Source: an uncultured Propionibacteriaceae bacterium (lineage in GTDB: Bacteria; Actinomycetota; Actinomycetes; Propionibacteriales; Propionibacteriaceae). From it: a stretch of 21,807 nt of DNA. Of the stretch, positions 1 to 21,404 are shown piece by piece (positions within the stretch are counted from its first letter, which is position 1; every line of letters begins with the position of its first letter). The notes under the pieces were generated by a model. That model saw only the letters and a program-made list of their open reading frames with translations. It made no database searches and was not told where the DNA came from. The stretch covers positions 1 through 21,807 of the forward strand of contig CALMAD010000408.1 in NCBI GenBank assembly GCA_937859105.1. The letters are read 5' to 3'. A program made the translations under genes and the position numbers.

Positions 1-504
1 GCCGTTCAACCGGCGCAGCTCGGTGGAGTTGTGGTCGGCGGCGAACTCCACCATCAGGCTCTCGGCCTGCCGGACGCGCTCTGCCGACAGGGTCTCCGGC
101 AGCTTGGCGAGGACGCCGGTGATCGCGTCCGCCTGCGCCGGGATCACCTCCCCGGACGCCGCCGCCGCGCCCACGACATCGAAGCGCTGGAGCTGACGCC
201 CTGTCGAGACGAGGCGCGACGCCTCACGATGTGTGAGCCGGACGACCTCCGCCAGCCACGTCGACAGCGAGGTGCCGTGCGCCCGCCAGGCCGCATCACT
301 GGCATCGACTCGTTCGGCCAACCGCGCGACCCAGGCATGCAACCGCGCCTGCGCGCGCAGCGAGACGTCGAGCAGCGCCAAGAGCTCCTCGTCGGAGCCG
401 CTCGGTGACCGCTCCGCGAGGGCCCCCAACGCCGCCTCGATGACCTCGACCACCTGGTCGTCAGGAAGCTGCCCGTACCCCTCCACGCCCACCACCATGG
501 GCAT
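1..504 (-). CDS. DUF222 / 13E12-repeat protein, N-terminal part (truncated by window edge)
   Basis: The reading frame runs off the left edge, so only about 168 N-terminal residues are visible. It reads as a helical, acidic and alanine/leucine-rich DUF222 domain. Visible pieces include LDVSLRAQARLHAWVARLAE, LTHREASRLVSTGRQL and FAADHNSTELRRLNG, the last resembling the helix that ends in a DHNST/ELRRL-like segment in this family. Family members usually carry a C-terminal HNH nuclease motif, which would lie outside the window. They are often multicopy in actinobacteria (the REP13E12 family of M. tuberculosis is the named example). I chose ATG 504 because GGGGG lies just upstream; in-frame ATGs at 528 and 498 are alternatives. 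The 118 bp between this start and the divergent DUF3097 gene holds both upstream regions, with no clear -35 on either strand. The family call is from protein pattern only; nuclease activity is not shown here. Confidence 0.72.
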   Translation of the reverse strand, partial: MPMVVGVEGYGQLPDDQVVEVIEAALGALAERSPSGSDEELLALLDVSLRAQARLHAWVARLAERVDASDAAWRAHGTSLSTWLAEVVRLTHREASRLVSTGRQLQRFDVVGAAAASGEVIPAQADAITGVLAKLPETLSAERVRQAESLMVEFAADHNSTELRRLNG

Positions 505-622
505 CCAGCCCCCATTTCTGTCACCCATCGATACATCCGCATATTTCTGGGCGGGCTTTCCCTCCGCGCTCCCCGGAACGGCGTCGGAAAGCTGTCGGAC
601 GGGCGTCCTAGGGTGGGTGACC

Positions 623-1486
623 GTGAATCGCTATTCGGGAGACGTGCTGGCCAAGGGCTGGCAGCGAGCCAATCGGCGGGCTGCGACGCCCACGCCGGTG
701 GGGCGCGACATGGTGCTGGAAGAGCCCACCTCGGGGTTCGTCGGTGCGGTCGTGGCGTGGGAGAACGGGCTCGTGGTGTTGGAAGACCGGCGCGGGAAGC
801 GCCGCAGCTTTCCCTTCGGGCCGAACTTCTGGCTCGACGGTCAGCCGATCGACCTCACCCCGCCCGCGCGGCGCGCAGCCACCGAGCGCGACGAAGCCCA
901 GCGGTACAACCGCACGCACACGGCGTCCGGATCGCTGGCCGGGCCGGCCGAGCAGGCGAAGGTCGCGTTGCCCAGTCGGATCTACGTCGAGGGCCGCCAC
1001 GACGCGGAGCTCGTCGAGAAGGTCTGGGGTTCCGACCTGCGGCACGTGGGCGTCGTCGTGGAGTACCTGGGCGGTATCGACGACCTGCCCGCCATCGTCG
1101 ACGAGTTCGCGCCCGAACGTGGGCGACGCCTCGGGGTCCTGGTCGACCACCTCGTGCCTGGGTCCAAAGAGTCGCGCATCGCGCAGAAGGTGACCGGCGA
1201 CTATGTCTTCGTCACGGGCCACGAGTTCATCGACATCTGGTCGGCCGTGAAGCCCGAGCGACTGGGGCTTCGCTCCTGGCCAGTCGTCCCTCGCGGGCAA
1301 GATTGGAAGTCGGGCATCTGCGCCGCGCTGGGCTGGCCGCACGCGAACCAGTCCGACATCGCGCGGGCCTGGCGCCAGATTTTGGGGAGGGTCACGTCGT
1401 GGAAGGATCTGGAGCCGGGGCTGTTGACCGAGGTCGAGAAACTGATTGACTTCGTGACCGAAGACCACCTCGACCGGGAGGGCTGA
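623..1486 (+). CDS. DUF3097 family protein with Toprim-like region
   Basis: This 287-residue soluble protein matches the actinobacterial DUF3097 family: an N-terminal NRYSGDVLAKGW segment, a small beta-rich region (GFVGAVVAWENGLVVLEDRRGKRR without its final residues), and a C-terminal part starting RIYVEGRHDAELVEKVWG. The VEGxxDA pattern followed by GVLVDHLVPGSKESR looks like a Toprim fold with a degenerate DxD motif, which is inference. The biochemical role is unknown. GTG 623 was preferred over GTG 617 because AGGG (610-613) is then 9 nt away. A TAGGGT box at 609-614 also allows an almost leaderless transcript. The stop codon overlaps the ATG of the next gene (TGATG), indicating coupling. 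From memory, DUF3097 often lies close to hrcA-dnaJ in actinobacteria; here six genes' worth of other material lies between them. Confidence 0.85.
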   Translation: MNRYSGDVLAKGWQRANRRAATPTPVGRDMVLEEPTSGFVGAVVAWENGLVVLEDRRGKRRSFPFGPNFWLDGQPIDLTPPARRAATERDEAQRYNRTHTASGSLAGPAEQAKVALPSRIYVEGRHDAELVEKVWGSDLRHVGVVVEYLGGIDDLPAIVDEFAPERGRRLGVLVDHLVPGSKESRIAQKVTGDYVFVTGHEFIDIWSAVKPERLGLRSWPVVPRGQDWKSGICAALGWPHANQSDIARAWRQILGRVTSWKDLEPGLLTEVEKLIDFVTEDHLDREG

Positions 1487-2283
1487 TGCTCACCGCCAGC
1501 GTCACTGATGCGATCGTCGACGTTTCTGCCCGCCTCGTTGTCCCGCGGTTCCGCACGCTCAAGGTCGACCAGATCGAACAGAAGCACCCGGGCGACCTGG
1601 TCACCGTCGCCGACAAGGAGGCCGAAGCCGAGCTCACGGAGATCTTCCGTGCGGGCGATCCCGACGCCCTCGTCCTCGGCGAGGAGGCGGTGTTCGCCGA
1701 CCCGTCGCTGCTCGACGGATTGCCGACGGCTGAGCACGCCTGGGTGATCGACCCCGTCGACGGCACGAACAACTTCGCCCGAGGGTCGGCCGACTTCGGG
1801 GTGATGGTGGTGGAGTGCCGGCGAGGCGATCCGGTCCGCTCGTGGATTTGGCAGCCCATCCACGATCGCATGTTCATTGCGGAGGCCGGCGGGGGCGTCA
1901 CGCTCAACGGGGAGGCGTTGGCTCCCTTGCCGGAGCCGGGGCGTCCGCTTCGTGCGGCCGCGCCCAAGAGCCTGCGGCACAACGATCTGTCGGGATTTCT
2001 CCTGCGCCCCACGGCTCGCTCGTGTGCGATCGACTACCCACACGTCGCGCTCGGCGAGCTGGATGTGCTCTGCTACCGCAGCCAGAACCCGTGGGATCAT
2101 CTGCCCGGCGCGCTCCTGGTCTCCGAGCTCGGTGGGCGCGCCGCCCTGCACGGCGGGGACGCCTATCGCGCCGGTCGGCACGGCGTCCTGCTGCTGGTGG
2201 CGGGCAGCCCGGATGCCTGGCAGGCGGCCGACGACGCCCTGGTTACGCCGGACTGGCTGAACGGGCACCCGCGACGGGTGTGA
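1486..2283 (+). CDS. Inositol monophosphatase-family phosphatase (HisN-like possible)
   Basis: This 265-residue protein has the metal-dependent inositol-monophosphatase fold signatures: VTVADKEAEAEL near residue 40 (D43), GEE at 65-67, DPVDGTNNF at 89-97 (D89 and D92 as metal ligands) and WDHLPGALLVSELGG at 203-217 (D204). These residues bind the Mg ions that activate water for phosphate-monoester hydrolysis. Actinobacterial members act on inositol phosphate, fructose-1,6-bisphosphate, histidinol phosphate or PAP, and the sequence does not tell which; HisN-type histidinol-phosphatase is one candidate. The ATG overlaps the DUF3097 stop, so the two are probably co-transcribed. The last 41 bp overlap tail-to-tail with the DUF418 gene on the other strand. 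Confidence 0.9.
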   Translation: MLTASVTDAIVDVSARLVVPRFRTLKVDQIEQKHPGDLVTVADKEAEAELTEIFRAGDPDALVLGEEAVFADPSLLDGLPTAEHAWVIDPVDGTNNFARGSADFGVMVVECRRGDPVRSWIWQPIHDRMFIAEAGGGVTLNGEALAPLPEPGRPLRAAAPKSLRHNDLSGFLLRPTARSCAIDYPHVALGELDVLCYRSQNPWDHLPGALLVSELGGRAALHGGDAYRAGRHGVLLLVAGSPDAWQAADDALVTPDWLNGHPRRV

Positions 2284-3469
2284 CGCGCCCGTAGGTGAGG
2301 CGCCTCAAGACCGCCTCGAACGGCCCGCGCGCGCCGCGCCGAGCCAAGGCGAGCGCGAGCGGCAGCGACCCGCACCAGACAGCGGTGGCGATGAGCGCGG
2401 CTGCGAGCGAGTTCACGTGGGCTCCGACGCCGAGGCCCCAGGCCGACATCAGCGGAGCGAGCACGATCGACTGCAGCAGGTAGAAGGTGAGCGAGCGGCG
2501 TCCGACGGCCTCGACGGCCCGGCCGAACCAGCCGAGCACCTCGCCGACGTGCGCGGCGATGAGCCCGATCGCTGCGGCGTAGCCCAGCCCGCCGGCGACG
2601 CCGGTGAGCATGGCGACGCCCACGAACATCCAGGGTGCTTCTGGCGGGGCCACCCGGACGCCCACCTGATGCAGCCCGTCGGGCAAGGCGCCGAGCCACG
2701 CGACGGCGATGCCGAGGACGGCGGTGGGCCACAGCAGGCGTCGGTGTCGGCGCGGCTCCTCGAGGACGCGGTGCCGCGCGGCCAGCCATCCGAGCAGGAT
2801 CGCGACCGGGACGGCCATGCCGACCAGGCCCTGACCTGGCGTGATGAACGCCCAGAACGCCAGCCGGGCGGGGATCGTCGCGAGGTAGTCGGGGGAGCCC
2901 CCGACCGCGGCCGCGCCCCAATCCGCGCTCGCCGTCGCGTCGCCGCTGCCGGCGAGGAAGAGGCCGCCCGCCACCATGGAGGCGGCGAACCCGGCGAGCA
3001 CCAGCGCGAAGACCCCGGCCCAGATGGCCACGGTCTTGTCCCGCCGTCGGAAGAACAGGGCGACGAGCACGAGGCCCGCCAGCCCGTAGGCCCCCAAGAC
3101 GTCGCCGGCGAACAGCAGCGCGGCGTGGACGAAGCCGAACCCGATCATCGCCCAGTGGCGGCGCCGCAGCATGGTCCGCACGCCGCGCTCGTCGAACCCG
3201 CGGGCAGCGCGGCTCCGCGCGAATTGCACCATGCCGTAGCCGAACAGAAACGCGAACATGGGGTAGACCCGCAGGTCGACGGCGATGGCGATGGCGGCGC
3301 GGGTGATCTGGTCGGCGTGCGTGCCTCCCGTGGGGTGGGCGCTCAGGGTGTCGTGCCCGCCGCCCCACAGGTGGTAGGGCGTGTTCGCCAACGCGATGAA
3401 GAGCAGCATCGTGCCGCGGGCGAGGTCGGGCGCAAGGGCCCGTGGTGGGGCGGGGGTGGGGGTGGTCAC
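2243..3469 (-). CDS. DUF418 family integral membrane protein (YeiB-like)
   Basis: This is a 408-residue polytopic membrane protein with about nine or ten hydrophobic segments. It opens with a Pro-rich tail and then RALAPDLARGTMLLFIALAN, the typical start of the DUF418/YeiB family (acyltransferase-3-like architecture). It has the VYPMFAFLFGYGMVQFARS loop, charged cytoplasmic loops and a C-terminal DUF418 block around VGRRSLTFYLLQSIVLAPLM. The molecular function of the family is not established; transport or membrane-linked acyl transfer have been proposed. The start is GTG with GGAG 4 nt upstream. It lies 23 bp after the MBL-fold gene on the same strand, so they form an operon. Its 3' end runs 41 bp into the convergent phosphatase gene. 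Confidence 0.88.
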   Translation of the reverse strand: MTTPTPAPPRALAPDLARGTMLLFIALANTPYHLWGGGHDTLSAHPTGGTHADQITRAAIAIAVDLRVYPMFAFLFGYGMVQFARSRAARGFDERGVRTMLRRRHWAMIGFGFVHAALLFAGDVLGAYGLAGLVLVALFFRRRDKTVAIWAGVFALVLAGFAASMVAGGLFLAGSGDATASADWGAAAVGGSPDYLATIPARLAFWAFITPGQGLVGMAVPVAILLGWLAARHRVLEEPRRHRRLLWPTAVLGIAVAWLGALPDGLHQVGVRVAPPEAPWMFVGVAMLTGVAGGLGYAAAIGLIAAHVGEVLGWFGRAVEAVGRRSLTFYLLQSIVLAPLMSAWGLGVGAHVNSLAAALIATAVWCGSLPLALALARRGARGPFEAVLRRLTYGRVTPVAGARSASPA

Positions 3470-3492
3470 CGGGCTCCGTTCCTGTCGGGCGG

Positions 3493-4332
3493 CTACGCCA
3501 GCGGCAGGCGCGTGCGAGGCCGTTTGCCCTCGGCCGCGAGGGCAGCGTAGATCATCGGCAGCCAGGCGCGGATGGTTTCTTCAGGGAAGTTCCATTCGCC
3601 GGCCTCGTAGGCGTCCTCTTCTTTGACGCCGCGCTGCACGAGGTAGTCGGCCTGCGCCCAGGTGCCGGCCAGCTCCCCGCGCTGGGTGAACGCGAAGTCG
3701 CGGTCGAACGGCTCCCCGTGGCCGGGGACCAGAAGCGACTCCGCGCGCAGGGTGCCGAGGATGCCGTCGAGCGCGCGGGGCCAGCCCTTGAGGTCGGAGT
3801 CCGGGCCGGCGGAAGGCGGGCCGGACTCCTCGAAGAGGTCGCCGGTGAAGATGACGTTCGCGTCAGGCACGAGCACCGCGGCGTCCCCGGGTGTGTGGGC
3901 CGTGCCGAAGTGGACGATCTCGATGTGGCGGCCGCCGACGTCGGCGGTCGCGGCGAGGTTGAACGTGCGCGTGGGGAACGCCAGTTCGTCGCGCCGCACT
4001 CCGAGCCGGGCGAGCTCGGCGTCCAGGTCGGCGTTCGCCTCGACGGACGCCTGCAGCGACGTGTGCCCGTAGGTCACGACGTCGGCGAACGCGCCCAGGC
4101 CGAAGAGGTGATCGTAGTGATGATGGGTCGCGACGGCCCCGACGATCGGCCGGTCGGTGACGTGCGCCACGGCCGCTCTGATCGCTCGGCCCTGCGCGGG
4201 CGACGAGCCGGTATCGACGACGAGCGCACCGGTGTCGCCGACGACGAGGCCGATGTTCACCGAGGCAGGCTCCGCGACGGCGCGGTGGATGCCGGGGGCG
4301 ATCTCGGTGAAGGGCGTCAGGCTGAACTCCAT
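3493..4332 (-). CDS. MBL-fold metallo-hydrolase
   Basis: This 279-residue protein has the full metallo-beta-lactamase superfamily metal site. It shows the HxHxDH motif as HHHYDH at 70-75, H146 in TAHTPGD, D165 in IFTGDLF and H205 in VPGHGEPF, so a dinuclear Zn site is expected. No signal peptide or membrane segment is seen, so it is probably cytoplasmic. The closest-looking group is the SoxH/quinoprotein-relay-like MBL hydrolases that begin FTEIAPGIHRA; the substrate cannot be read from sequence. The start at 4332 is supported by AAGG 8 nt upstream; longer in-frame starts lack support and run into the GH3 control region. TAAGGT (4340-4345 on this strand) could also serve as a -10, which would make the transcript nearly leaderless. 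The DUF418 gene follows. Confidence 0.88.
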   Translation of the reverse strand: MEFSLTPFTEIAPGIHRAVAEPASVNIGLVVGDTGALVVDTGSSPAQGRAIRAAVAHVTDRPIVGAVATHHHYDHLFGLGAFADVVTYGHTSLQASVEANADLDAELARLGVRRDELAFPTRTFNLAATADVGGRHIEIVHFGTAHTPGDAAVLVPDANVIFTGDLFEESGPPSAGPDSDLKGWPRALDGILGTLRAESLLVPGHGEPFDRDFAFTQRGELAGTWAQADYLVQRGVKEEDAYEAGEWNFPEETIRAWLPMIYAALAAEGKRPRTRLPLA

Positions 4333-4375
4333 GCCCGACACCTTAGGCGAGAGGGCGGACACCGGCCTCGGGGTG

Positions 4376-4404
4376 TTCGCAGGGAGCGCCACGCGGACCA
4401 TACT
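4376..4404 (+). promoter_or_regulatory. Candidate sigma-A-type promoter of the GH3 gene
   Basis: TTCGCA (4376-4381, 4 of 6 matches to TTGACA) is separated by 17 bp from CATACT (4399-4404, 4 of 6 matches to TATAAT). The predicted start of transcription is near 4411, giving a leader of about 25 nt that carries the strong ribosome binding site GAGGAGG (4423-4429). It lies in the 103-bp divergent gap shared with the MBL-fold gene. I saw no inverted repeat suggesting a LacI-type operator here. Confidence 0.45.
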
Positions 4405-4435
4405 GGGGCGGACACCCCAGGCGAGGAGGCCCTTC

Positions 4436-6700
4436 ATGGACATCGATAAGATCGTCTCCGAACTCACCCTTCCGGAGAAGGCGAGCTTGCTGATCGGGGG
4501 TGATTTCTGGCACACCGCGGCGATCGAACGTCTCGGCGTCCCGGCGATCATGATGTCCGACGGCCCGCACGGCATGCGGACGCAACTGAGCCAGGGCGAT
4601 CACGTCGGCACCGGCGGCTCCGAGCCGGCGACGTGCTTCCCGACGGCGAGCAACCTGCACGCGGCGTGGGATCCCGAGTTGAACCGGCGGGTCGGGGCCG
4701 CGTTGGCGGCCGAGGCGGACGCCCTCGGCGTCGCGGTCGTGCTCGGTCCGGGCGTCAATATCAAGCGGTCGCCCTTGTGCGGGCGCAATTTCGAGTACAT
4801 CTCCGAGGATCCGTACCTCGCCGGCGTCCTCGGCGCGGCGATGGTGGAGGGCGTCCAGAGCGGCGGCATCGGGACGTCGGTGAAGCACTTCGCGGCGAAC
4901 AACCAGGAGACCGACCGGCTGCGTGTCAACGCGATCGTCGACGAGCGCACGCTGCGCGAGATCTACCTGCCGGCCTTCGAGCGCGTCGTCAAGACCGCGC
5001 AGCCGTGGACCGTCATGTGCTCCTACAACACGCTGAACGGCGTCCGCGTGTCCGAGAACCATTGGCTGCTCACCGAGGTCCTGCGCGACGAGTGGGGCTT
5101 CGAGGGGCTGGTCGTCAGCGACTGGGGCGCGGTGGGCGACCGGCCCGCGGCCGTCGCCGCGGGCCTGGACCTCGAGATGCCGCCCGCCAAGGGCCTCTCG
5201 GACGCCGCGGTGGTCGCGGCGGTGGAGTCCGGCGACCTCCCGATCGAGGCTGTGGACGCCTGCGTCCGCCGCGTCCTCGAACTCGTCGAGCGGGGCGGCC
5301 ACGTCCGGCGCCAGCCGGACTCGATCGACCTGGACGCCCACCACGCCCTCGCCCGCGAGGCGGCGGCGCAGGGCATCGTGCTGCTGAAGAACGCCCAGGT
5401 CGGCGGCGAGCCGGTGCTGCCCCTGCGTCCGGACGCCCGCGTGGCCGTCATCGGCGAGTTCGCCCGCACGACCCGCTTCCAGGGCGGCGGCTCGTCGCAG
5501 GTCAACGCGACGCGCGTCGAGAGCGCCCTGGACGCCTTCGCCGACGCGTACCCCGACGTCGATTTCGCGCCCGGCTTCCTGCTGGACGGCCCCGATGACG
5601 GACTGCTCGACGAGGCCGTCGCGGCCGCCCGGAACGCCGACGTCGCGGTCGTGTTCCTGGGGCTGACGGACGCCGAGGAGTCCGAGGGCTTCGACCGGTC
5701 CCACATGGAGTTGCCCGCGCACCAGCTCGCGCTGCTGTACGCCGTCGTCCGGGCGAACCCGGCCACCGTGGTCGTGCTCTCGAACGGGTCCGCGGTGACG
5801 ATGCGCCCCTGGGACGCCGACCCGGCCGCCGTCGTCGAGGCGTGGCTGGGCGGGCAGGCGGTGGGCGGGGCCGTGGTGGACGTCCTGACCGGCAAGGTCA
5901 ACCCCGCCGGACGCCTCTGCGAGACCTTGCCGCTGCGCCTCGAGGACTCCCCGGCGTACGGCAACTTCCCGGGCGATTCGGGCTCGGTGCGCTACGGCGA
6001 GGGGCTGTTGGTCGGCTACCGCGGCTTCGACTACGCGAGCAAGGAGGTGGCCTACCCATTCGGCTACGGCCTGTCCTACACGACGTTCGAGCTGGGGGGC
6101 CTGAGCGTGGAACCGTCGGGCTCGGCGGCGTCCGGGGATCTGGCGGTGAGCGTCGGCGTCGACGTCACGAACGTCGGCGAACGTGCGGGCGCCGAGGTCG
6201 TCCAGGTGTACGTGGCCGATCCGGAGGCGTCCGTGCTGCGGCCCAAGCGCGAGCTGAGGGGTTTCGCGAAGGTGTTCCTCGAGCCGGGGGAGACCCGCCG
6301 TGTCGAGGTGACGCTCGACCAGCGCGCGTTCTCGTTCTGGTCCGCGTTGACGCGCACCTGGGTCGTCGAAGGGGGCGACTTCGTCATCGAGGTGGGTCCG
6401 CACAGCCGCGACCTGCAGCTCACCGAGACCATCGCCGTGGACGCCCCCCGCGTCGCCGCCCCGATCGACTTCAACTCCACGGCGCAGGAGTGGGCCGCGG
6501 ACGCCGAGGCGATGGCGATCCTTCGCCGCCACTGCGGCGTCCCCGACGACGTGGAGCCGGGACTCTTCGCTGACGCCGACCTGATGACCCTGATCGGGAA
6601 CTTCCCGCTGGAGCGGCTGGCGTCCGCGTTCGAGATCGAGCCGAGCTACGAGCACGTGTCGGCGGCCTTGGCGGAGGTCCAGGCGGTGCGCGGCGCCTGA
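4436..6700 (+). CDS. Glycoside hydrolase family 3 beta-glycosidase
   Basis: This 754-residue enzyme has the three-domain GH3 layout. The N-terminal TIM-barrel domain runs to about 300 (MSDGPHGMR, GPGVNIKRSPLCGRNFEY, KHFAANNQE). The catalytic nucleophile is D229 in VVSDWGAV. The alpha/beta C-domain covers about 310-560 (GIVLLKN, ESEGFDRSHMELP with E417 as the probable acid/base, NPAGRLCETLP). A fibronectin-III-like domain spans about 565-655 (VDVTNVGERAGAEVVQVYV). A further tail of about 90 residues follows (AQEWAADAEAMAILRRHCGV). There is no signal peptide, so it acts in the cytoplasm on imported oligosaccharides or glycosides, most likely as a beta-glucosidase, though beta-xylosidase is possible. 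ATG 4436 has GAGGAGG at 6 nt spacing; earlier in-frame starts overlap the divergent gene. No sugar transporter or regulator gene lies beside it. Confidence 0.93.
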   Translation: MDIDKIVSELTLPEKASLLIGGDFWHTAAIERLGVPAIMMSDGPHGMRTQLSQGDHVGTGGSEPATCFPTASNLHAAWDPELNRRVGAALAAEADALGVAVVLGPGVNIKRSPLCGRNFEYISEDPYLAGVLGAAMVEGVQSGGIGTSVKHFAANNQETDRLRVNAIVDERTLREIYLPAFERVVKTAQPWTVMCSYNTLNGVRVSENHWLLTEVLRDEWGFEGLVVSDWGAVGDRPAAVAAGLDLEMPPAKGLSDAAVVAAVESGDLPIEAVDACVRRVLELVERGGHVRRQPDSIDLDAHHALAREAAAQGIVLLKNAQVGGEPVLPLRPDARVAVIGEFARTTRFQGGGSSQVNATRVESALDAFADAYPDVDFAPGFLLDGPDDGLLDEAVAAARNADVAVVFLGLTDAEESEGFDRSHMELPAHQLALLYAVVRANPATVVVLSNGSAVTMRPWDADPAAVVEAWLGGQAVGGAVVDVLTGKVNPAGRLCETLPLRLEDSPAYGNFPGDSGSVRYGEGLLVGYRGFDYASKEVAYPFGYGLSYTTFELGGLSVEPSGSAASGDLAVSVGVDVTNVGERAGAEVVQVYVADPEASVLRPKRELRGFAKVFLEPGETRRVEVTLDQRAFSFWSALTRTWVVEGGDFVIEVGPHSRDLQLTETIAVDAPRVAAPIDFNSTAQEWAADAEAMAILRRHCGVPDDVEPGLFADADLMTLIGNFPLERLASAFEIEPSYEHVSAALAEVQAVRGA

Positions 6701-6713
6701 CCCCCGGTCCCGC

Positions 6714-6764
6714 GGTCCGGCGCCGAACGCCGGAACCCGGACGCCTCCCCCGCGCTTGCGCGGG
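6714..6764 (+). terminator. Tandem hairpins after the GH3 gene (possible terminator)
   Basis: Two inverted repeats follow the GH3 stop. The first has arms TCCGGCG and CGCCGGA (6716-6722 and 6728-6734) around CCGAA, extended by GG/CC past one bulged A. The second is CCCGCGC-TT-GCGCGGG (6749-6764), with a loop too short to form without opening a pair. Neither is followed by a U-run, so this could only be a non-canonical terminator of the type discussed for high-GC actinobacteria. Hairpins of this size arise by chance fairly often at this GC content. Confidence 0.35.
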
Positions 6765-6782
6765 CCTGGCAGCATCGGTGGC

Positions 6783-7181: not shown

Positions 7182-7189
7182 GACGCCGA

Positions 7190-8288: not shown

Positions 8289-8291
8289 TGC

Positions 8292-11457: not shown

Positions 11458-11507
11458 ACCGGGCCGCCCCGGTCGACGGCGGCGTCCCGGCCGTGAGATC
11501 GTCGGGC

Positions 11508-11891: not shown

Positions 11892-11921
11892 GGACGCCCG
11901 CGACAGCGCGTCCCGAATGCC
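11892..11921 (+). promoter_or_regulatory. Bipartite 30-bp element, copy 1 (before the PP2C gene)
   Basis: GGACGCCCGCG at 11892-11902, then 11 nt, then CGAATGCC at 11914-11921. The same two blocks with the same 11-nt spacing occur at 15382-15411 and 19264-19293. The 11-nt gap differs in all three, so the blocks themselves appear selected. Here GGACGC also pairs with GCGTCC at 11908-11913. It lies 42 nt after the tfoX-like stop and 119 nt before the PP2C start. Its function is unknown. Confidence 0.6.
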
Positions 11922-14460: not shown

Positions 14461-14687
14461 CGGGCCGCTCCGGTCGCGCGCGTCCGGCGTCCGACCAGCC
14501 GGCTCAGGGCGGCCTGCTTGGCCATGAAGAGCCCGGAGAGCGCCATCAGCGGGAGGGCTCCGGCGGCCAGGACCAGACGGGCGGTCTCGGCGGGCACCTG
14601 GGGGAGGTAGATCGCGAGGGCCGCGATCGCCGCGATCGCCACGTGAACGGAGCGCACGATCGCGCGGAGCTTCGCCGGACTGGGCAT
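14457..14687 (-). CDS. Small two-helix membrane protein, unknown
   Basis: I do not recognise this 76-residue protein. It has two hydrophobic stretches, about 12-30 (VHVAIAAIAALAIYLPQV) and 36-56 (ARLVLAAGALPLMALSGLFM), and basic ends (MPSPAKLRAIVR and RRTRATGAAR). The basic N-terminus suggests both ends face the cytoplasm. AAGG lies 9 nt before the ATG. Its 4-nt overlap with the DUF1772 gene argues for a real, translated gene and a two-subunit membrane product. It is first in the operon and closest to the TetR operator. Confidence 0.72.
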   Translation of the reverse strand: MPSPAKLRAIVRSVHVAIAAIAALAIYLPQVPAETARLVLAAGALPLMALSGLFMAKQAALSRLVGRRTRATGAAR

Positions 14688-14712
14688 GGGGGATCACCCT
14701 TCTCGTATGTTT

Positions 14713-14734
14713 ACGTATGTAAGGTTACATGCGT
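14713..14734. promoter_or_regulatory. TetR-type operator between tetR and the DUF1772 operon
   Basis: The arms ACGTATGTAA (14713-14722) and TTACATGCGT (14725-14734) are inverted repeats with a GG centre and one mismatch in ten. This is the only AT-rich palindrome in the window and sits in the middle of the 80-bp divergent gap. A TAGGGT hexamer (14735-14740) immediately after it could be the tetR -10, so binding would block tetR and probably the opposite operon. Confidence 0.75.
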
Positions 14735-14767
14735 TAGGGTGTTCGTCAAGGGAAGGGAGAGTGCCAG

Positions 14768-15349
14768 GTGACGCAGACGACACGGCGGCGCAACGCCCGC
14801 GGCGAGGGCGAGCGCCTGAGGCAGGAACTGATCCGCGCGGCCAGCCAGTTGCTCGAATCGCTGCCGGGTGAGGAGTCGCTGTCGTTGCGCGCCGTGGCCA
14901 GACAGGCCGGGGTCTCGGCGCCGAGCGTGTACCTGCACTTCGCCGACAAGGGCGAATTGGTCGGCGCGGTGCTCGCGACCCGGTTCGCCGAGTTGGACCG
15001 GGCGATGGCGGCCGCCGCCGGCCGAGCCGCCTCGCCGGAGGCGGAGTTGTGGGAGCGCTGCGCCGCGTACGTCGGTTACGCCGAGCAGCACCCGGGCAAC
15101 TACCGGGTGATGTTCGCGGCGGTCCCGTCCGGCGACCGGCCCGACGAGGCGGCGCCGGGGGCCGAGATGGTGCGGCGGCTCGGGCGGCTGGCGATCCGCT
15201 GCGGCGCCACCGGGGACCCGCTGGAGGTCGGCACCGTGCTGTGGTGCGGGCTCCACGGGATCGTCACCCTGCCCGAGTCCAAGCCCCTGTTCCCGTGGCC
15301 GGGCCGCGAGCTGCTGCTGCGGCGGCTCATCGCGTGCGTCACCGGCTGA
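14768..15349 (+). CDS. TetR-family transcriptional regulator (WHG-type C-terminal domain)
   Basis: This 193-residue regulator has an N-terminal TetR DNA-binding domain: RLRQELIRAASQLLES, then SLRAVARQAGVSAPSVYLHF at 39-58, followed by ADKGELVGAVL. The C-terminal ligand domain has WERCAAYVGYAEQHPGNYRV and LWCGLHGIVTL, the WHG-like signature of the TetR_C_33 group. The GTG start at 14768 has GGGAG about 9 nt upstream. It is divergent from the small-membrane-protein/DUF1772 operon with an operator between them. Control of the eut genes 280 bp downstream is less likely because that gap lacks a copy of the palindrome. Confidence 0.92.
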   Translation: MTQTTRRRNARGEGERLRQELIRAASQLLESLPGEESLSLRAVARQAGVSAPSVYLHFADKGELVGAVLATRFAELDRAMAAAAGRAASPEAELWERCAAYVGYAEQHPGNYRVMFAAVPSGDRPDEAAPGAEMVRRLGRLAIRCGATGDPLEVGTVLWCGLHGIVTLPESKPLFPWPGRELLLRRLIACVTG

Positions 15350-15381
15350 GCTCGGTCGTGGGTCCGCGGCGCCAGCAGAAC

Positions 15382-15411
15382 GGACGCCCGCGTCCTGAAC
15401 TATCGAACGCA
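15382..15411 (+). promoter_or_regulatory. Bipartite 30-bp element, copy 2 (before the eut operon)
   Basis: GGACGCCCGCG (15382-15392), 11 nt, CGAACGCA (15404-15411). Relative to the other copies the right block differs at two positions (T to C, C to A). Here the left block also forms the inverted repeat GGACGC-CC-GCGTCC (15382-15395). It lies 32 nt after the tetR stop and 219 nt before the permease start. The remaining sequence to 15630 contains one more GGACGCC (15516) and no recognised promoter or riboswitch. Confidence 0.55.
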
Positions 15412-15630
15412 CCATCGTGCAGCGAAGCGACGGACGTGTTACGCGCTCGTGGCGCCGTCGGGCCGGAGCGAACGGTCTCGTTACGCGTCGATGACAGGCC
15501 CCTTTTTCGAGAGGCGGACGCCCATTCCCGGCGAATAATCGAACGAGACCTGTCGCCGGCGACGACTCTGGTGCCGGCTGCTCGGACGGGGTCGGCCTGG
15601 CGATTCGACCCACCGGGAAGCAGAGGCACC

Positions 15631-17073
15631 ATGTCCATCGATACGCGTCAACCGTCGGGCGGCGGGGCCCCCGACGCCCGCACGGAGTCCGCCGACTACC
15701 TGGAGAAGCGGTCGTTGAAATCCGGCTCCGCTGGGTGGATCCTGCTCGCCGGGCTCGGCGTCAGCTACGTGATCTCGGGCGACTTCTCGGGGTGGAACGG
15801 CGGCCTGGCCGAGGGCGGCTTCGGCGGCCTGCTGATCGCCTTCGGGATCATCGCCGTCATGTACTTCTGCATGGTGCTGGGCATGGCCGAGCTCTCCTCG
15901 GCGCTCCCGGCGGCCGGCGGCGGCTACACGTTCGCGCGAGCCGCCCTGGGGCCCTGGGGTGGCTTCGCGACCGGCGCCGCCGTGCTGATCGAGTACACGA
16001 TCGCCCCGGCCGCCATCGCGACGTTCATCGGGGCCTACGTCGAGTCGCTGCACCTGTTCGGCATCACCGACGGCTGGTGGGTGTACCTCGCGGTGTACGC
16101 GATCTTCATGGCGATCCACCTGACCGGGGCGGGCGAGGCGCTCAAGACGATGTTCGTCATCACGGCGATCGCCTTGGTGGGCCTGGTCGTGTTCGTCGTC
16201 GCGGCGCTGGGGATGTTCCACCCCGCGAACCTGACGAACATTCCGGTGGACCAGGCGGCGGCCGGGGCGTCCCCGTTCCTGCCGTTCGGGACGCTCGGCA
16301 TCTGGGCGGCCCTGCCGTTCGCGATCTGGTTCTTCCTCGCGGTCGAGGGCGTCCCGCTGGCGGCCGAGGAGGCGGACGACCCGGCCAAGGACGTGCCGCG
16401 CGGCATCATCCTCGCCATGTGCGCCCTCGTCGTCACCGGCGCGCTCGTGCTCGTGCTGGCCCCCGGGGCCGGCGGCGCGCAGCAGATCGCCGAGTCCGGC
16501 AACCCGCTGGTGCTCGCGCTCGGCGATTCCGTCTGGGCTCGGGTCGTGAACTACATCGGCCTCGCGGGCCTGGTCGCGAGCTTCTTCTCGATCATGTACG
16601 CCTACTCGCGGCAGACGTTCGCCCTCTCGCGGGCGGGCTACCTGCCGACGAGCCTGTCGGTGACGAACTCGCGCAAGGCCCCCGTGCTGGCGATCGTCGT
16701 GCCGGGCGTGATCGGGTTCGTGCTCTCCCTCACCGGACAAGGGGCGATGCTGCTCAACATGGCGGTGTTCGGCGCGGCCGTCAGCTACGTTCTCATCATG
16801 GTGAGCCACATCGTCCTGCGCGTGAAGCAGCCCGCGCTCGTGCGGCCCTACAAGACCCCGGGCGGCATCGCGACGACCGCGGTCGCCCTGGTCATCGCGG
16901 CGGCGTCCGTCATCGCGACCTTCCTCGTGGACGTGCGGGCGGCCGGCCTGACGTTCGCGGCCTTCGCCGCGATGATGGCCTACTTCGGCCTCTACAGCCG
17001 CCACCACCTCGTCGCCAACTCCCCGGACGAGGAGTTCGCGGCCCTCACGTCGGCGGAGGGGGAGGTCGCGTGA
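15631..17073 (+). CDS. Ethanolamine permease (APC superfamily)
   Basis: This 480-residue transporter has about 12 transmembrane helices of the amino acid-polyamine-organocation type. The N-terminal half (LEKRSLKSGSAGWILLAG, GVSYVISGDFSGWNGGLAEG, ALPAAGGGYTFARAALGPWG) closely fits the ethanolamine permease subgroup. Helix 6-8 segments such as FAIWFFLAVEGVPLAAEEAD are typical of that group. It should import ethanolamine, in symport or exchange, for the lyase encoded next to it. ATG 15631 follows AGAGG. Its stop overlaps the eutB GTG (GTGA), so the three genes form one operon. Confidence 0.93.
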   Translation: MSIDTRQPSGGGAPDARTESADYLEKRSLKSGSAGWILLAGLGVSYVISGDFSGWNGGLAEGGFGGLLIAFGIIAVMYFCMVLGMAELSSALPAAGGGYTFARAALGPWGGFATGAAVLIEYTIAPAAIATFIGAYVESLHLFGITDGWWVYLAVYAIFMAIHLTGAGEALKTMFVITAIALVGLVVFVVAALGMFHPANLTNIPVDQAAAGASPFLPFGTLGIWAALPFAIWFFLAVEGVPLAAEEADDPAKDVPRGIILAMCALVVTGALVLVLAPGAGGAQQIAESGNPLVLALGDSVWARVVNYIGLAGLVASFFSIMYAYSRQTFALSRAGYLPTSLSVTNSRKAPVLAIVVPGVIGFVLSLTGQGAMLLNMAVFGAAVSYVLIMVSHIVLRVKQPALVRPYKTPGGIATTAVALVIAAASVIATFLVDVRAAGLTFAAFAAMMAYFGLYSRHHLVANSPDEEFAALTSAEGEVA

Positions 17074-18479
17074 CCGTCCGGACGCACGCGCTGAACGGGA
17101 CGACCTACCGCTTCGACGGCCTGGTCGACCTCCTGGCGAAGGCGACCCCGAAGCGCTCGGGCGACGAGCTGGCCGGCTGTGCGGCGTCCTCGGCCGCCGA
17201 GCGGGTCGCGGCCCAGTGGGCACTGGCCGACGAGCCGCTGGCGACCTTCCTCAACGAGGAGGTCGTGCCGTACGAGACCGATGAGGTCACCCGGCTCATC
17301 ATGGATTCCCACGACCCGGACGCCTTCGCGCCGGTGTCCTCCCTGACGGTGGGCGAGTTCCGGAACTGGCTGCTCGACGTCGCGACGCGGCCCGACTCCT
17401 CGGCGATCCTCACGGCCCTGGCGCCCGGGCTCACCCCCGAGATGGCGGCGGCGGTGAGCAAGCTCATGTCGTTGCAGGACCTGATCTCGGTCCCCGGGGC
17501 GGTGCAGGTGACGTCCGGCTTCCGGACGACCCTCGGCCTCAAGGGCACCCTCGCCACGCGGCTGCAGCCGAACCACCCGACGGACGACCCGGCGGGCGTC
17601 TCGGCGGCCATCCTCGACGGCCTCCTGCTGGGGTCGGGGGACGCCGTGGTCGGCATCAACCCCGCGTCCGACTCGCCGCAGGCGTCCGCCGACCTGCTCT
17701 ACCTGATCGACGACGTCCGGCAGCGGCTCGACATCCCCACCCAGTCGTGCGTCCTGACGCACGTGACGACGACGATCGGGCTGATCGAGGCCGGCGTCCC
17801 GGTGGATCTGCCGTTCCAGTCGATCGCGGGCACCGAGAAGGCGAACACCGGCTTCGGCGTGACGCTGGCGATCCTGCGGGAGGCCGACGAGGCGGCTCGC
17901 TCGCTCCGGCGCGGGGTCGTCGGCGACAACGTCATGTACTTCGAGACCGGTCAGGGCTCGGCGCTCTCGGCGGACGCGCATCGCGGCGTCGGCGGGCGTC
18001 CGGTCGACGAGCAGACGCTGGAGGCCCGCGCCTACGGCGTCGCGCGGGCCTTCTCGCCGCTGCTGCTGAACACCGTGGTCGGGTTCATCGGGCCCGAGTA
18101 CCTCCACGACGGCAAGCAGATCATCCGGGCCGGGCTGGAGGACAACTTCTGCGGCAAGCTGCTCGGCGTCCCGATGGGGGTGGACGTCTGCTACACGAAC
18201 CACGCCGAGGCCGACGACGACGACATGGACGCGCTGCTCACCCTGCTGGCGGCGGCCGGGACGAACTACGTGATCTGCGTCCCGGGGACCGACGACGTCA
18301 TGCTGGGCTATCAGAGCCTGTCGTTCCACAACGCGCTGGCCGTGCGCCGGTCGCTGGGGCTGCGCCCGGCGCCCGAGTTCGAGGCCTGGCTCGAGCGCAT
18401 GGACATGGCCGACCGGGCGGGGCATGTGGTGCCCCGCGACCCGATCGGGTCGCCGCTGGCCGAGCTGGTGCGGAGGTGA
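17070..18479 (+). CDS. eutB: Ethanolamine ammonia-lyase large subunit EutB
   Basis: This 469-residue protein is the catalytic TIM-barrel subunit of adenosylcobalamin-dependent ethanolamine ammonia-lyase (EC 4.3.1.7), which converts ethanolamine to acetaldehyde and ammonia. Recognised family segments include GEFRNWLLD, MSLQDLISVPG, LATRLQPNHPTDD, VVGINPASDS, QSIAGTEKANTGFGV, MYFETGQGSALSA, GFIGPEYLHDGKQIIRAGLE and VCYTNHAEADDDDMD. The length is close to the E. coli enzyme (about 450). GTG 17070 overlaps the permease stop and has GGAGGGGGAGG (17054-17064) upstream. The enzyme needs B12; no cobalamin genes or eutA reactivase gene are in the window. Confidence 0.97.
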   Translation: MTVRTHALNGTTYRFDGLVDLLAKATPKRSGDELAGCAASSAAERVAAQWALADEPLATFLNEEVVPYETDEVTRLIMDSHDPDAFAPVSSLTVGEFRNWLLDVATRPDSSAILTALAPGLTPEMAAAVSKLMSLQDLISVPGAVQVTSGFRTTLGLKGTLATRLQPNHPTDDPAGVSAAILDGLLLGSGDAVVGINPASDSPQASADLLYLIDDVRQRLDIPTQSCVLTHVTTTIGLIEAGVPVDLPFQSIAGTEKANTGFGVTLAILREADEAARSLRRGVVGDNVMYFETGQGSALSADAHRGVGGRPVDEQTLEARAYGVARAFSPLLLNTVVGFIGPEYLHDGKQIIRAGLEDNFCGKLLGVPMGVDVCYTNHAEADDDDMDALLTLLAAAGTNYVICVPGTDDVMLGYQSLSFHNALAVRRSLGLRPAPEFEAWLERMDMADRAGHVVPRDPIGSPLAELVRR

Positions 18480-18484
18480 GCGGC

Positions 18485-19240
18485 GTGGGCGACGACCTGC
18501 AGATCAGCGAGTTCTGGGCGCCGCTGCGCCGCACCACCCAGGCGCGGATCGGCCTGGGGCACACGGGCGACGGGCTCCCGACGGCGCACCGCCTCGCCCT
18601 GCGCGAGGCGCACGCGCTGGCGCGGGACGCGGTGACGACCCCGCTGGACGTCCCGTCGCTCGTCGAGGGCCTCGCGGACGCCGGCGTCCCCGAGGCCTAC
18701 CAGGTGACCAGCCGGGCGGCGGACCGCGACGAATACGTCCGGCGGCCCGATCTCGGACGCCTCCCCGCCGACCTGGGCGGCCTGGCGGAGGCCGGCGCCG
18801 GGTTCGACGTCGGGATCGTGCTGGCCGACGGACTGTCGCCCCGGGCGGTCATGGACCACGGCCCCGCGATGGTCGCCGCCCTGCTGGACGCCCTCCCGGG
18901 CGACCTGACCCGCGCGCCGCTCGTGATCGCGACGAACGCGCGGGTCGCGCTCGGCGACCACGTGGGGGAGGCGTTGGGGCTCGGCACGCTGCTGGTGCTG
19001 ATCGGCGAGCGTCCGGGGTTGTCGGTGGCCGACAGCCTCGGCCTCTACCTGACGCATCGCCCCCGGCCTGGGCGTGCCGACTCGGAGAGAAACTGCATCT
19101 CGAACATCCATCCGCCCGAGGGACTCGGGTACCGGCAGGCCGCCGCGACGGCCGTCCGGCTGCTCGGGGCCTCGCGCGAGTTGGGGCGCTCGGGTGTCGC
19201 CGTGAAGGACATCGGCGTCGACCGCGCACTGGGGGGCTGA
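18485..19240 (+). CDS. eutC: Ethanolamine ammonia-lyase small subunit EutC
   Basis: This 251-residue subunit completes the EutBC lyase and helps hold adenosylcobalamin. Family segments are FWAPLRRTTQARIGLGHTGD, LPTAHRLALREAHALARDAV, DVGIVLADGLSPRAV, LGLYLTHRPRPGRADSERNC and ISNIHPPEGLGYRQAA. It is shorter than the E. coli protein (295) mainly at the N-terminus. GTG 18485 has an excellent GGAGGTG (18472-18478) 6 nt upstream. GTG 18476, overlapping the eutB stop as GTGA, is the alternative and would add three residues. No aldehyde dehydrogenase, phosphotransacetylase or shell-protein gene follows, so acetaldehyde must be handled by enzymes encoded elsewhere. Confidence 0.96.
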   Translation: MGDDLQISEFWAPLRRTTQARIGLGHTGDGLPTAHRLALREAHALARDAVTTPLDVPSLVEGLADAGVPEAYQVTSRAADRDEYVRRPDLGRLPADLGGLAEAGAGFDVGIVLADGLSPRAVMDHGPAMVAALLDALPGDLTRAPLVIATNARVALGDHVGEALGLGTLLVLIGERPGLSVADSLGLYLTHRPRPGRADSERNCISNIHPPEGLGYRQAAATAVRLLGASRELGRSGVAVKDIGVDRALGG

Positions 19241-19263
19241 GCCGGCTCCTGTGCCCGGGGAAC

Positions 19264-19293
19264 GGACGCCCGCGGCGTGGGGGGTCGAATGCC
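19264..19293 (+). promoter_or_regulatory. Bipartite 30-bp element, copy 3 (before the kinase gene)
   Basis: GGACGCCCGCG (19264-19274), 11 nt, CGAATGCC (19286-19293). Both blocks are identical to copy 1 at 11892-11921. The left block is preceded by GAAC as in copy 2. A small inverted repeat ACGCC-CGC-GGCGT overlaps it. It lies 23 nt after the eutC stop and 38 nt before the kinase -10 box. Confidence 0.6.
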
Positions 19294-19328
19294 GGTTGGG
19301 CGATACGCGCTCCGGCCCTGACGAGGGT

Positions 19329-19337
19329 TGTTAGCGT
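19329..19337 (+). promoter_or_regulatory. Extended -10 promoter of the kinase gene
   Basis: TTGTTAGCGT contains TG-T-TAGCGT, an extended -10 at 19329-19337, nearly the same as TTGCTAGTGT before the PP2C gene. No -35 was found. Transcription would begin near 19344, giving a leader of about 28 nt that carries GGAGG (19363-19367). Confidence 0.5.
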
Positions 19338-19353
19338 GCGGGCTCCAGCCCGC
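19338..19353 (+). promoter_or_regulatory. Perfect palindrome at the kinase transcription start
   Basis: GCGGGCTCCAGCCCGC has perfect 7-bp arms around CC. It begins directly after the -10 box and so covers the predicted transcription start. It could be a repressor site or, if transcribed, a hairpin at the 5' end of the mRNA ahead of the ribosome binding site. The GC-rich composition makes chance possible. Confidence 0.4.
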
Positions 19354-19371
19354 GCGACGACCGGAGGCAGC

Positions 19372-20691
19372 ATGACGACCCCTCCTGCCGGCGCCCCTCG
19401 GCCCCGGTGGACGCCCGTCACCCCGGCGACCTCCCCAGCGCCCGCGCTGGAGGGATTCGAGTACGTCCGGCCGCTGGGGTCGGGCGGCCAGGCGGACGTC
19501 CACCTCTACCGTCAGCGCCTCCCGCACCGGCTGGTCGCCGTGAAGGTCCTGCGGGAGCGCGACCCCGCCGCCGCGGCGTCCCTGGTGGCCGAGGCGAACG
19601 CGCTGGCCGCCGTCGAGCACCCCCACATCGCGGAGGTGTACGCGGTCGGCGTCGCGCCCGACGGGCGTCCCTACCTGGTGATGCGCCACGACCCCGGGGC
19701 GACGCTCGCCGACCGGGCGGGCGCGGTCGGCGTCGAGGAGGCCCTGCGCCTCGGCGTCCAGCTGTCCGGCGCGGTCGCGACGCTGCACGCGGCCGGACTG
19801 CTGCACCGCGACATCAAGCCGGCGAACGTGCTCGTCAGCGCCTACGGGACGCCCATTCTCGCCGACTTCGCGCTCGCCGCCGGCCCGGACGCCGACGAGG
19901 CCGGGGCGTCCCTGCCCTGGACGGCCCCCGAACTGCTGCTGGGCGGTGAGCCGGCCACCGAGGCGTCCGAGGTGTACGCGCTGGCCGCCACCCTCTGGAC
20001 CTTGCTCGCCGGGCGCGCGCCGTACGCCGACCCGTCCGGCGACGACACGCCCGCCGCGCTGCTGCGCCGGGTGCGGGCGGGACGCCTCGGCGCCCTCCCC
20101 GGGGACGTCCCCGACGGCCTCGCCCGGCTGCTGCGCCGGGCGCTGGACGCCGATCCGTCCCGGCGGCCGGCGTCCGCCCGGGCCTTCGGCGCCGAACTGC
20201 GCGCCCTGCAGAGCGACCTGGGGCTGCCGCGCACCGACTGGCTGGCGGATGGCGGTGACGCGCCCGAGGCGTCCCCGCGCGCACACCCGAGCGGACGCCA
20301 CCCGGCGCCCTGGCTTGTCGGAGGGCTCACGGTCGCGATCGCCGCGGGGGCGCTCGGGGTGTGGGGGCTGATCGCGCCCCGACCGGCCGGGACGTCGCCC
20401 GCCGGCGGGACGGCCGGCGTACCGGCCGCGTCCGCCGCCCCGCCGGCCGCCCGTCCCGTCCCGGACACCCCCTCGCCTCTCACCCTCAACGGACGCCGCA
20501 CCGGCGACCTCGCGACGTTCGCCTGGCCCCGGCGCCACTCGGTCGAGACCTACCGCGCGCGCGTCGGCGCCCGGGTGGTCACGGTGGCGGACCCGACGCT
20601 GGAGGTCCGCTCGCACGCCCGGGTCTGCGTCGAGGTCCAGGCCCTCCGCGACGGCGTCCCCGCCGGCCCGCCTGCCCGAGGGTGCGCATGA
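19372..20691 (+). CDS. Membrane Ser/Thr protein kinase with DFA motif and FN3-like outer domain
   Basis: This 439-residue protein has a Hanks-type kinase domain at about 30-285: glycine loop LGSGGQADVHLY (35-46), K58 in VAVKVL, helix-C E74, HRDIKPANVL with D147 and N152, and the metal-binding motif D165-F166-A167, so DFG reads DFA. The activation segment is short and ends in APE (185-187). The DVYALG-like helix reads SEVYALA, with Glu for Asp. A basic linker leads to one transmembrane helix at about 314-335, a Pro/Ala-rich stretch, and a C-terminal extracellular domain (about 368-439) with an FN3-like pattern (ATFAWPRRHSVETYRARVG, RVCVEVQALRDG). There are no PASTA repeats. ATG 19372 has GGAGG 4 nt upstream. 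The stop overlaps the FHA gene start. Catalytic residues are intact, so activity is likely. Confidence 0.93.
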   Translation: MTTPPAGAPRPRWTPVTPATSPAPALEGFEYVRPLGSGGQADVHLYRQRLPHRLVAVKVLRERDPAAAASLVAEANALAAVEHPHIAEVYAVGVAPDGRPYLVMRHDPGATLADRAGAVGVEEALRLGVQLSGAVATLHAAGLLHRDIKPANVLVSAYGTPILADFALAAGPDADEAGASLPWTAPELLLGGEPATEASEVYALAATLWTLLAGRAPYADPSGDDTPAALLRRVRAGRLGALPGDVPDGLARLLRRALDADPSRRPASARAFGAELRALQSDLGLPRTDWLADGGDAPEASPRAHPSGRHPAPWLVGGLTVAIAAGALGVWGLIAPRPAGTSPAGGTAGVPAASAAPPAARPVPDTPSPLTLNGRRTGDLATFAWPRRHSVETYRARVGARVVTVADPTLEVRSHARVCVEVQALRDGVPAGPPARGCA

Positions 20692-21404
20692 GGAGCCCGG
20701 CCGCGCTCGAGATCGTCTGGGGCGACGCGGTCGTCCGCCCGGACCCGGCGGCCCCGTTCACCATCGGCCGCGACGCCGACCTCGTCGTCGACCCCGACAA
20801 CCCGTTCCTCCACCGCCGCTTCCTGGCCCTCGCGTTCGCGCCCGACCAGGGGCTCTGGTGGCTCGCGAACGTCGGCGACCGCCTGTCGGCGACCGTCTCC
20901 GCGGCCGACGGCGCGATGCAGGCCTGGCTCGCCCCCGGCGCCCGGCTGCCGCTCGTGTTCGCCGCCACGCGCGTCCTGTTCACCGCCGGCGAGACGACGT
21001 ACGCCCTCACGCTCGCCCTCCCGGACGCCGCCTACGAGCCCGTCCGGACGCCTGAGCCGTCCGCCGACGGCTCCCTCACCCTCGGACGCCTCACCCTCAC
21101 CCCCAGCCAGCGCCTCCTCATCGTCGCGCTCGCCGAGCCGTGGCTCCGCCGCGGGGACGTCGGCGCCGGCCACGTGCCCACCTCCGCCGCCGCGGCCGGA
21201 CGCCTGGGCTGGCCGCTCACCACCTTCAACCGCAAGCTCGACAACGTCTGCGCGCGGCTCGGCGAGGCCGGCGTCCGGGGGCTGCACGGCGGCCCGGAGC
21301 GCCTCGCGCGGGCCCGCAAGGCCCGCCTGGTGGAGTACGCCGTCGCCGCCCGGCTGGTCACCGCGTCCGACCTCGAGCTCCTCCCGGACGCCTCCCGCGC
21401 CTAG
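20688..21404 (+). CDS. FHA-domain protein with probable winged-helix C-terminus
   Basis: This 238-residue soluble protein begins with an FHA phosphothreonine-binding domain at about 6-112: FTIGRDADLVVDP with G27-R28, LHRRF around 41-45 in place of the usual SxxH, and WLANVG with N61. After a linker (about 115-133) comes LTLTPSQRLLIVALAEPWLR at 135-154 and LTTFNRKLDNVCARLGEAGV at 177-196. This is a helical region whose spacing resembles the winged-helix domain of response-regulator or SARP-type DNA-binding proteins; that assignment is inference. The ATG overlaps the kinase stop (ATGA), so the kinase and this protein are made together and this protein is probably the kinase's substrate or reader. 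A second role in transcription would link the membrane kinase directly to gene control. Confidence 0.82.
   Translation: MRSPAALEIVWGDAVVRPDPAAPFTIGRDADLVVDPDNPFLHRRFLALAFAPDQGLWWLANVGDRLSATVSAADGAMQAWLAPGARLPLVFAATRVLFTAGETTYALTLALPDAAYEPVRTPEPSADGSLTLGRLTLTPSQRLLIVALAEPWLRRGDVGAGHVPTSAAAAGRLGWPLTTFNRKLDNVCARLGEAGVRGLHGGPERLARARKARLVEYAVAARLVTASDLELLPDASRA

Follow-up and report, generated by a model that had tools for sequence, protein, structure and literature searches.

Only a small number of words are known to be iterated throughout a genome, and through some of them sequence-specific DNA uptake and the control of recombination came to light. The DNA uptake sequence (DUS) of Neisseria meningitidis is present in about 1,900 copies in 2.2–2.3 Mb, or less than one per kb, and DUS are described in Frye 2013 (PMC3630211) as frame-neutral words with dialects. 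The iterated words of cyanobacteria mostly reach about 500–2500 per Mb, and three switches from one word to another were accompanied by matching methyltransferases, according to Elhai 2015 (PMC4390886). Here we describe the heptamer GGACGCC, found in a stretch of 21,807 nucleotides from an uncultured Propionibacteriaceae bacterium (contig CALMAD010000408.1, assembly GCA_937859105.1), which in its full length is called the window. We are nearly certain that GGACGCC is a DNA-level, lineage-specific iterated word, and the evidence from the window, from its genome and from related genomes is presented below.

In the window, GGACGCC was counted 99 times, with 51 copies on the forward strand and 48 on the reverse strand, or about 4.5/kb. 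This agreed with an earlier annotation of the same letters, here called the sequence-only reading, which had reported about 99 copies in nearly equal orientations. That reading had also given about 12 copies as the expectation from base composition and about 31 for the one-base variant CGACGCC; the recounts were 13.7 and 32, respectively. Shuffles of the window that kept dinucleotides gave 17.35 ± 4.41 copies (maximum 30 in 100 shuffles), Markov models predicted 15.0 (3-mer) and 22.4 (4-mer), and GGACGCC ranked first among all 7-mers of the window, whether by z or by raw number of copies. The window genes contained 91 copies compared to 28.8 ± 4.4 (maximum 42) in 500 synonymous-codon shuffles, and codon shuffling, named earlier as a possible way to reproduce the count, thus did not reproduce it. 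The non-coding DNA, as delimited by gene limits set by hand, held 7 words wholly inside 1,206 bases (5.8/kb), consistent with the earlier statement that the word is at least as dense there (8 in about 1.3 kb). The observation that the kinase gene writes each of its six Ala-Ser pairs as GCG-TCC was also correct, and in five of them a G stands in front, so that a complete GGACGCC is formed. The features are listed by position in the window.

111..21392, both strands (51 forward, 48 reverse): span of the 99 GGACGCC copies, by word count
19372..20691, forward strand: protein kinase gene (Pfam Pkinase) with 15 words, Ala-Ser 6/6 as GCG-TCC
4445..6703, forward strand: glycosyl hydrolase family 3 gene with 19 words, start limit set by hand
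602..608, reverse strand: non-coding GGACGCC, by word count
6739..6745, forward strand: non-coding GGACGCC, by word count
11481..11487, reverse strand: non-coding GGACGCC, by word count
11892..11898, forward strand: non-coding GGACGCC, by word count
15382..15388, forward strand: non-coding GGACGCC, by word count
15516..15522, forward strand: non-coding GGACGCC, by word count
19264..19270, forward strand: non-coding GGACGCC, by word count
18676..18689: gapless opposed word pair, 18676-18682 forward and 18683-18689 reverse, by word count

The assembly of the window (G000; 2.61 Mb in 486 contigs, 73.85% complete, the window being contig C408) contained 10,360 copies of GGACGCC, 5,086 forward and 5,274 reverse, which corresponds to 3,966 per Mb, about 4/kb or one per 252 bp. 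The reversed word occurred 984 times (464 + 520). In G003, a second genome of the genus, there were about 4,600 GGACGCC per Mb, or one per about 217 bp. Because the reversed word gives no more than a rough control, null models based on genes were added in which synonymous codons were shuffled within called genes, in stretches sampled per genome; the genes were called with a simple home-made codon-model caller that misses or overextends some genes. A strict codon-pair-preserving shuffle, as proposed earlier, would largely retain GGACGCC itself, and a shuffle keeping the codon-boundary dinucleotides was used instead. In a 157-kb sample of G000 the coding DNA contained 606 copies compared to 190 ± 10 in the synonymous shuffle and 205 ± 9 in six shuffles that kept the boundary dinucleotides. 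The corresponding numbers were 818, 241 and 275 in G003, and 166, 73 and 72 in the first sample from G028, which belongs to the family but not to the genus. All six frame-and-strand registers were up in G000 (observed/expected 64/7.0, 29/8.4, 208/90, 111/53, 22/1.9 and 172/30), among them GGA-CGC with 64 vs 7.0 and nGG-CGT-CCn with 22 vs 1.9. A register scan of all 7-mers in 13 genomes, resting on 80–420 kb sampled per genome and not on whole genomes, placed GGACGCC first in five genomes of the genus (G000, G003, G001, G009 and G006) and in G028, and in these six carriers all six registers exceeded the synonymous-shuffle null. In G027 the word ranked 24th, at 1.28-fold, and it stood much lower in the lists for G015, G017, G029, G016, G031 and G034. 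Between genes, GGACGCC was the top 7-mer in both G000 (53 in 8.5 kb compared to 5.6–10.2 expected from Markov models) and G003 (65 in 13.9 kb compared to 8.0–15.7). The genome-wide iterated word proposed by the sequence-only reading was thus recovered in the assembly, in coding samples and between genes, and the ordinary intergenic density that would have spoken against it was not seen in these two genomes.

In a GC-rich genome the copies could in principle be a by-product of which amino acids and codon pairs are used. Many copies do fall in the frequent Asp-Ala and Ala-Ser pairs, as had been said earlier and as was seen in the genome sample, but 606 copies vs 190 in G000, the first rank between genes in G000 and G003, and the lack of enrichment in the GC-rich relatives G015, G017, G029 and G034 leave this origin with hardly any probability, and it was ruled out by the two shuffles. 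DNA-level pressure appears to bend codon and dipeptide choice, reaching the proteins. A quarter of the GGA codons of G000 (64 of 252) sit in GGA-CGC-C. As a fraction of expectation, Ala-Ser pairs were at 1.25 in G000, 1.29 in G003, 1.13 in G001 and 0.93 in G028, and Asp-Ala pairs at 1.31, 1.32, 1.18 and 1.08, respectively. The comparison genomes G029 and G034 gave 0.84 and 0.89 for Ala-Ser and 1.01 in both for Asp-Ala; when G016 was added, the ranges were 0.84–0.95 and 0.88–1.01. GGACGCC is therefore a case where pressure on the DNA appears to shape amino-acid pairs, with lower values in less dense carriers.

The word was enriched in all 13 genomes of the genus, with a ratio of word to reversed word between 3.5 (G011) and 11.7 (G003). 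In 20 other genomes of the family the ratio was 5.2 in G028, 0.12 in G019 and 1.0–2.9 in the remaining 18, and in 24 genomes from the order it was about 1–2.2. A class survey of 296 genomes, drawn evenly and containing no further member of the genus, gave 10.5 for G000, and the next highest value noticed was 3.5 in G587. This genome (f3/g23, 3.5-fold) and four f94/g246 genomes (2.6- to 3.4-fold) are possible independent carriers. The carrier genus is possibly Propioniciclava or one closely related to it, because G007 and G002 match, at 100% over the compared stretches, the records 'Propionibacteriaceae bacterium S3R_St_70' and 'Propioniciclava sp. D148_maxbin.016', respectively. The best public relatives of the tRNA-guanine transglycosylase of the window are found in Propionibacteriaceae. 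G001 was without a match to this enzyme, and the G006 copy is split into two pieces that overlap; frameshifts are possible in this genome. At 14768-19243 the window also holds, as judged from Pfam, a compact cluster for ethanolamine use, in which the genes for a TetR regulator, an amino-acid permease, EutB and EutC all run the same way.

The register scan found a second word, GGTACGCC, in G016, from another genus of the family, with 88 copies compared to about 10 expected in coding DNA and six registers up. The two words have GG and ACGCC in common and are one T apart. When GGTACGCC was counted in 57 genomes, its ratio to the reversed word was 26 in G016, 13 in G021 and 18.5 in G025, 5.3–15 in eight f2 genomes and 2.2–6.6 in eight f4 genomes. 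Five f3/g25 genomes gave 11, 5.4, 4.9, 2.2 and 1.4, three g23 genomes about 1, and other family members were near 2 (G013 2.7, G014 2.2, G017 2.1, G026 2.0 and G028 1.9). The iteration of GGTACGCC in other genera of the order is new here. In all 13 genomes of the genus that iterates GGACGCC, GGTACGCC was at background (0.63–1.28), and among the genomes counted for both words none was strong in both, the nearest being G028 (5.2 for GGACGCC and 1.9 for GGTACGCC) and G118 (2.5 and 4.9). GGACGCC and GGTACGCC thus behave as lineage dialects of one word family. A phylum survey of 296 genomes showed GGTACGCC above 4 solely in G260 (10.7) and G118 (4.9). G260 (f10/g35) lies outside the order, in another family of the class, so either the word GGTACGCC or the reader of it may be older than the order or may have been spread.

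The core of the word comprises seven bases. All 21 one-base variants were at 0.3–1.9 of the null in G000 and G003, compared to 3.2 and 3.5 for GGACGCC; decay products, sought as an excess of these variants, did not stand out within this range, in which the baseline is too high to reveal decay. A context-dependent mutation or repair bias, e.g. of the very-short-patch type, could make such a word without any function and would account for frame and strand independence as well as site turnover. The two lowest variants, GGACCCC (observed/null 19/61 in G000 and 23/60 in G003) and GGAGGCC (45/106 and 60/136), were depleted in both genomes examined, as such a bias might leave them. However, their deficits in G000 (42 and 61) were far below the GGACGCC excess of 419, and the transition neighbours in G000 were near the null (GGATGCC 42/39, GGACGTC 113/116, GGACGCT 32/25, GGACACC 33/36, AGACGCC 27/31, GAACGCC 61/56 and GGGCGCC 145/167). 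Such a bias would also have to act towards GGACGCC from each of its 21 neighbours, and if the sites were mutational cold spots they should be conserved beyond the controls, which was not clearly seen in alignments near saturation. We regard this origin as very improbable. No longer consensus was found, as the flanks gave mainly a preference for C ahead of the word (CGGACGCC 306/84 in G000 and 431/90 in G003; TCGGACGCC 136/16 in G003), and a palindromic GGNNNCC frame was rejected, with the ACG spacer alone standing out. The flank and consensus analysis was made without G012 and G013, which had no readable bases, and single stretches of up to 20 kb were too small for ranking.

Site conservation among relatives had been suggested earlier as a check, and the word sites of the window were aligned to nine relatives of the genus. 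The sites were identical in 31 of 241 cases (0.13) compared to 899 of 5,646 (0.16) for control words of the same composition. In the reverse direction, 31 of 137 word sites of the relatives were identical (0.23) compared to 899 of 5,737 controls (0.16), and this higher identity would be expected if the only difference were a higher word content of the window. The sites recur across relatives and the identity of 70–76% is near saturation, so the test is weak, and no clear conservation of GGACGCC sites was found across the nine relatives. The alignment left out L010 and L023, which are duplicates of G007 and G002, and L009, L013, L016, L017, L019 and L020, which were not assigned to the genus.

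The orientation of the words bears on a Chi-like role, in which GGACGCC would regulate RecBCD, AdnAB or another end-resection enzyme as a recombination word. Chi words are 5–8 bp, non-palindromic, over-represented and lineage-variable, which speaks for such a role, and RecC was matched in 12 of 13 genomes of the genus, the exception being G008, which is 72% complete. In contrast, the Chi of E. coli is strongly strand-biased. In G001, whose chromosome begins at dnaA-dnaN, the leading strand carried 494 and the lagging strand 542 of the 1,036 words in 21 stretches when the terminus was taken as opposite dnaA. A replication-strand skew was thus rejected for this genome, and the skew about the origin raised by the sequence-only reading was not there. 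Furthermore, RecC was matched in none of the seven f4 genomes examined nor in the f2 genome G039, most of which iterate GGTACGCC (5.6- to 10-fold in G038, G041, G044, G050, G053 and G039, with the five f4 genomes at about 6-fold). These results make the Chi-like role quite unlikely. The RecC domain score was 78–120 bits in genus g1 compared to 191–254 in f2/f3, one f2 fragment apart.

Alternatively, the copies could be selected as sites of a DNA-modifying or nucleoid-binding protein that requires one every few hundred bases, as for the highly iterated palindrome HIP1 (GCGATCGC), and the dialects would then be changes of protein. The densities of G000 (3,966 per Mb) and G003 (about 4,600) agree better with the usual density of HIP1-like words than with that of uptake words, and the words switch by lineage as cyanobacterial iterated words do. 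Each genome of the genus has at least one of the methyltransferase families PF01555, PF00145 and PF02384, and unrelated enzymes of one specificity are possible. However, HIP words are palindromic and neither GGACGCC nor GGTACGCC is its own reverse complement. PF01555 had no match in the carrier G011, PF00145 none in G000, G002, G008, G009 and G012, and PF02384 none in G009, so among the three families profiled none was present in all carriers; D12, Eco57I and MmeI-type enzymes were not searched. These three families are those that were covered for the methylation role offered by the sequence-only reading. Regular spacing was also rejected, as no period was seen and the gaps were roughly exponential and slightly clustered (coefficient of variation 1.07–1.48 in four genomes). 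On balance a HIP1-like role comes second among the mechanisms and is less likely than not. The palindrome CGATCG, the HIP1 core, exceeded the synonymous null by a factor of about 1.5 to 2 in the coding samples of G003, G027 and G028.

As the best single mechanism we tentatively favour a self-DNA recognition word of the DNA-uptake type, kept dense by molecular drive. GGACGCC would be a self-DNA tag read by a putative receptor of a pilus/ComEC uptake route, word-bearing DNA would be preferentially taken in and then recombined into the chromosome, and word-level molecular drive would hold the copies at high density, as for the uptake sequences of Neisseriaceae and Pasteurellaceae. What favours the uptake-type reading are the dialects and the symmetry, together with site turnover and the pairing of words in inverted orientation. 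Of the roles offered earlier, uptake fits best, and replication-oriented recombination is disfavoured by the 494 leading and 542 lagging words of G001. Uptake is possible given the ComEC and T2SSE-type ATPases; ComEC matched in 53 of 54 relatives, the match in G030 being a short piece under the cut-off, and T2SSE-type ATPases matched in 54 of 54. Where two words lay within 25 bp of each other they were mostly inverted: 21 of 28 such pairs outside genes and 143 of 217 inside, as raw counts without a null. Among the inverted non-coding pairs, four formed the 14-bp palindrome GGCGTCCGGACGCC and one other was followed by a T run; no excess of pairs was found in convergent gaps (1 of 22). Intergenic GGCGTCCGGACGCC, two words back to back, was located in L104, L164, L175 and L250, from three genomes of the genus (G000, G001 twice, and G006).

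It was partly shown that the sites turn over and that two acquired-looking islands are word-poor. One of these stretches, L097:1-17000 of G003, had 11 words and the other, L113 of G006, had 6 in 20 kb, and defence or mobile genes were present. The word is a possible marker of acquired DNA. More broadly, Propionibacteriales may conceivably possess a system, so far undescribed, that recognises self-DNA by a GG(T)ACGCC word and forms dialects; in this genus the word would be among the densest of its kind and dense enough to bias proteins. To our knowledge, such a system would be the first uptake-sequence-like one in Actinobacteria.

Several observations weigh against uptake or weaken the case more generally. 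GGACGCC is several times denser than DUS in N. meningitidis, and its density exceeds what uptake of kilobase fragments should need. Known uptake words are longer than seven bases. ComEC was not found in the carrier G012, alone of the 54 genomes, where a gap is possible in an assembly of 330 contigs, and ComEC and T2SSE also occur in word-less genomes and are thus non-discriminating. No reader protein or receptor was found among the profiles for ComEC, T2SSE, the three methyltransferase families and RecC. In G028, GGACGCC was not the top word between genes (5 copies compared to 2.9–3.7 expected), and the non-called DNA of G016 held 3 GGTACGCC in 8.5 kb, which is under the coding density. Copies were more often sense than antisense in G003 (437/381), G001 (538/417), G009 (376/276), G006 (187/142) and G028 (168/134); G000 showed no sense excess (301/305), and the shuffled null was also sense-heavy (about 105/85 in G000, 139/102 in G003 and 46/28 in G028). 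A promoter or terminator role was set aside, as the words had no preference for a type of gap in five genomes (3.96 words/kb in convergent, 3.19 in codirectional and 2.96 in divergent gaps), although inverted pairs at short distance are frequent; this lack of preference also counts against uptake. Finally, the word-poor stretches were chosen for low density, three other such stretches were without mobile genes, and a relaxase gene adjoining one island carried 18 words within 3 kb, which shows that mobile DNA can also be word-rich.

No uptake-type iterated word in Actinobacteria turned up in searches of 5.39 million open PMC papers, and among the matches listed for open PMC papers with GGACGCC or GGTACGCC no title concerned a genome-wide word. 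A strong, frame-neutral and lineage-switching word in Actinobacteria makes the question of how such words originate testable in a new phylum, and one family offers a natural comparison between GGACGCC, GGTACGCC and word-less relatives.

Compared to known systems, GGACGCC is short and genome-wide like the FtsK-orienting polar sequences (KOPS), but it is symmetric, whereas KOPS and other FtsK-orienting words are strongly strand-biased. It shares with Chi that it is short, non-palindromic and over-represented, and it differs from Chi in having no replication-strand bias in G001 and in that RecC was not found in one family that iterates GGTACGCC. Like HIP1 and other cyanobacterial words, it is the most over-represented word of the genome and switches between related lineages; unlike HIP1 it is non-palindromic, and HIP palindromes are linked to matching methyltransferases, while the three families profiled here are not in all carriers. 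DUS and the uptake signal sequences (USS) of Pasteurellaceae are 9–12 bp, and their intergenic copies lie in inverted pairs that are often terminators. The words described here are 7–8 bp and occur in Actinobacteria. As with the DUS of Neisseriaceae and the USS, GGACGCC is a short, non-palindromic word with thousands of copies on both strands, located in and between genes without a fixed frame, with lineage dialects that share a core and with many inverted close pairs.

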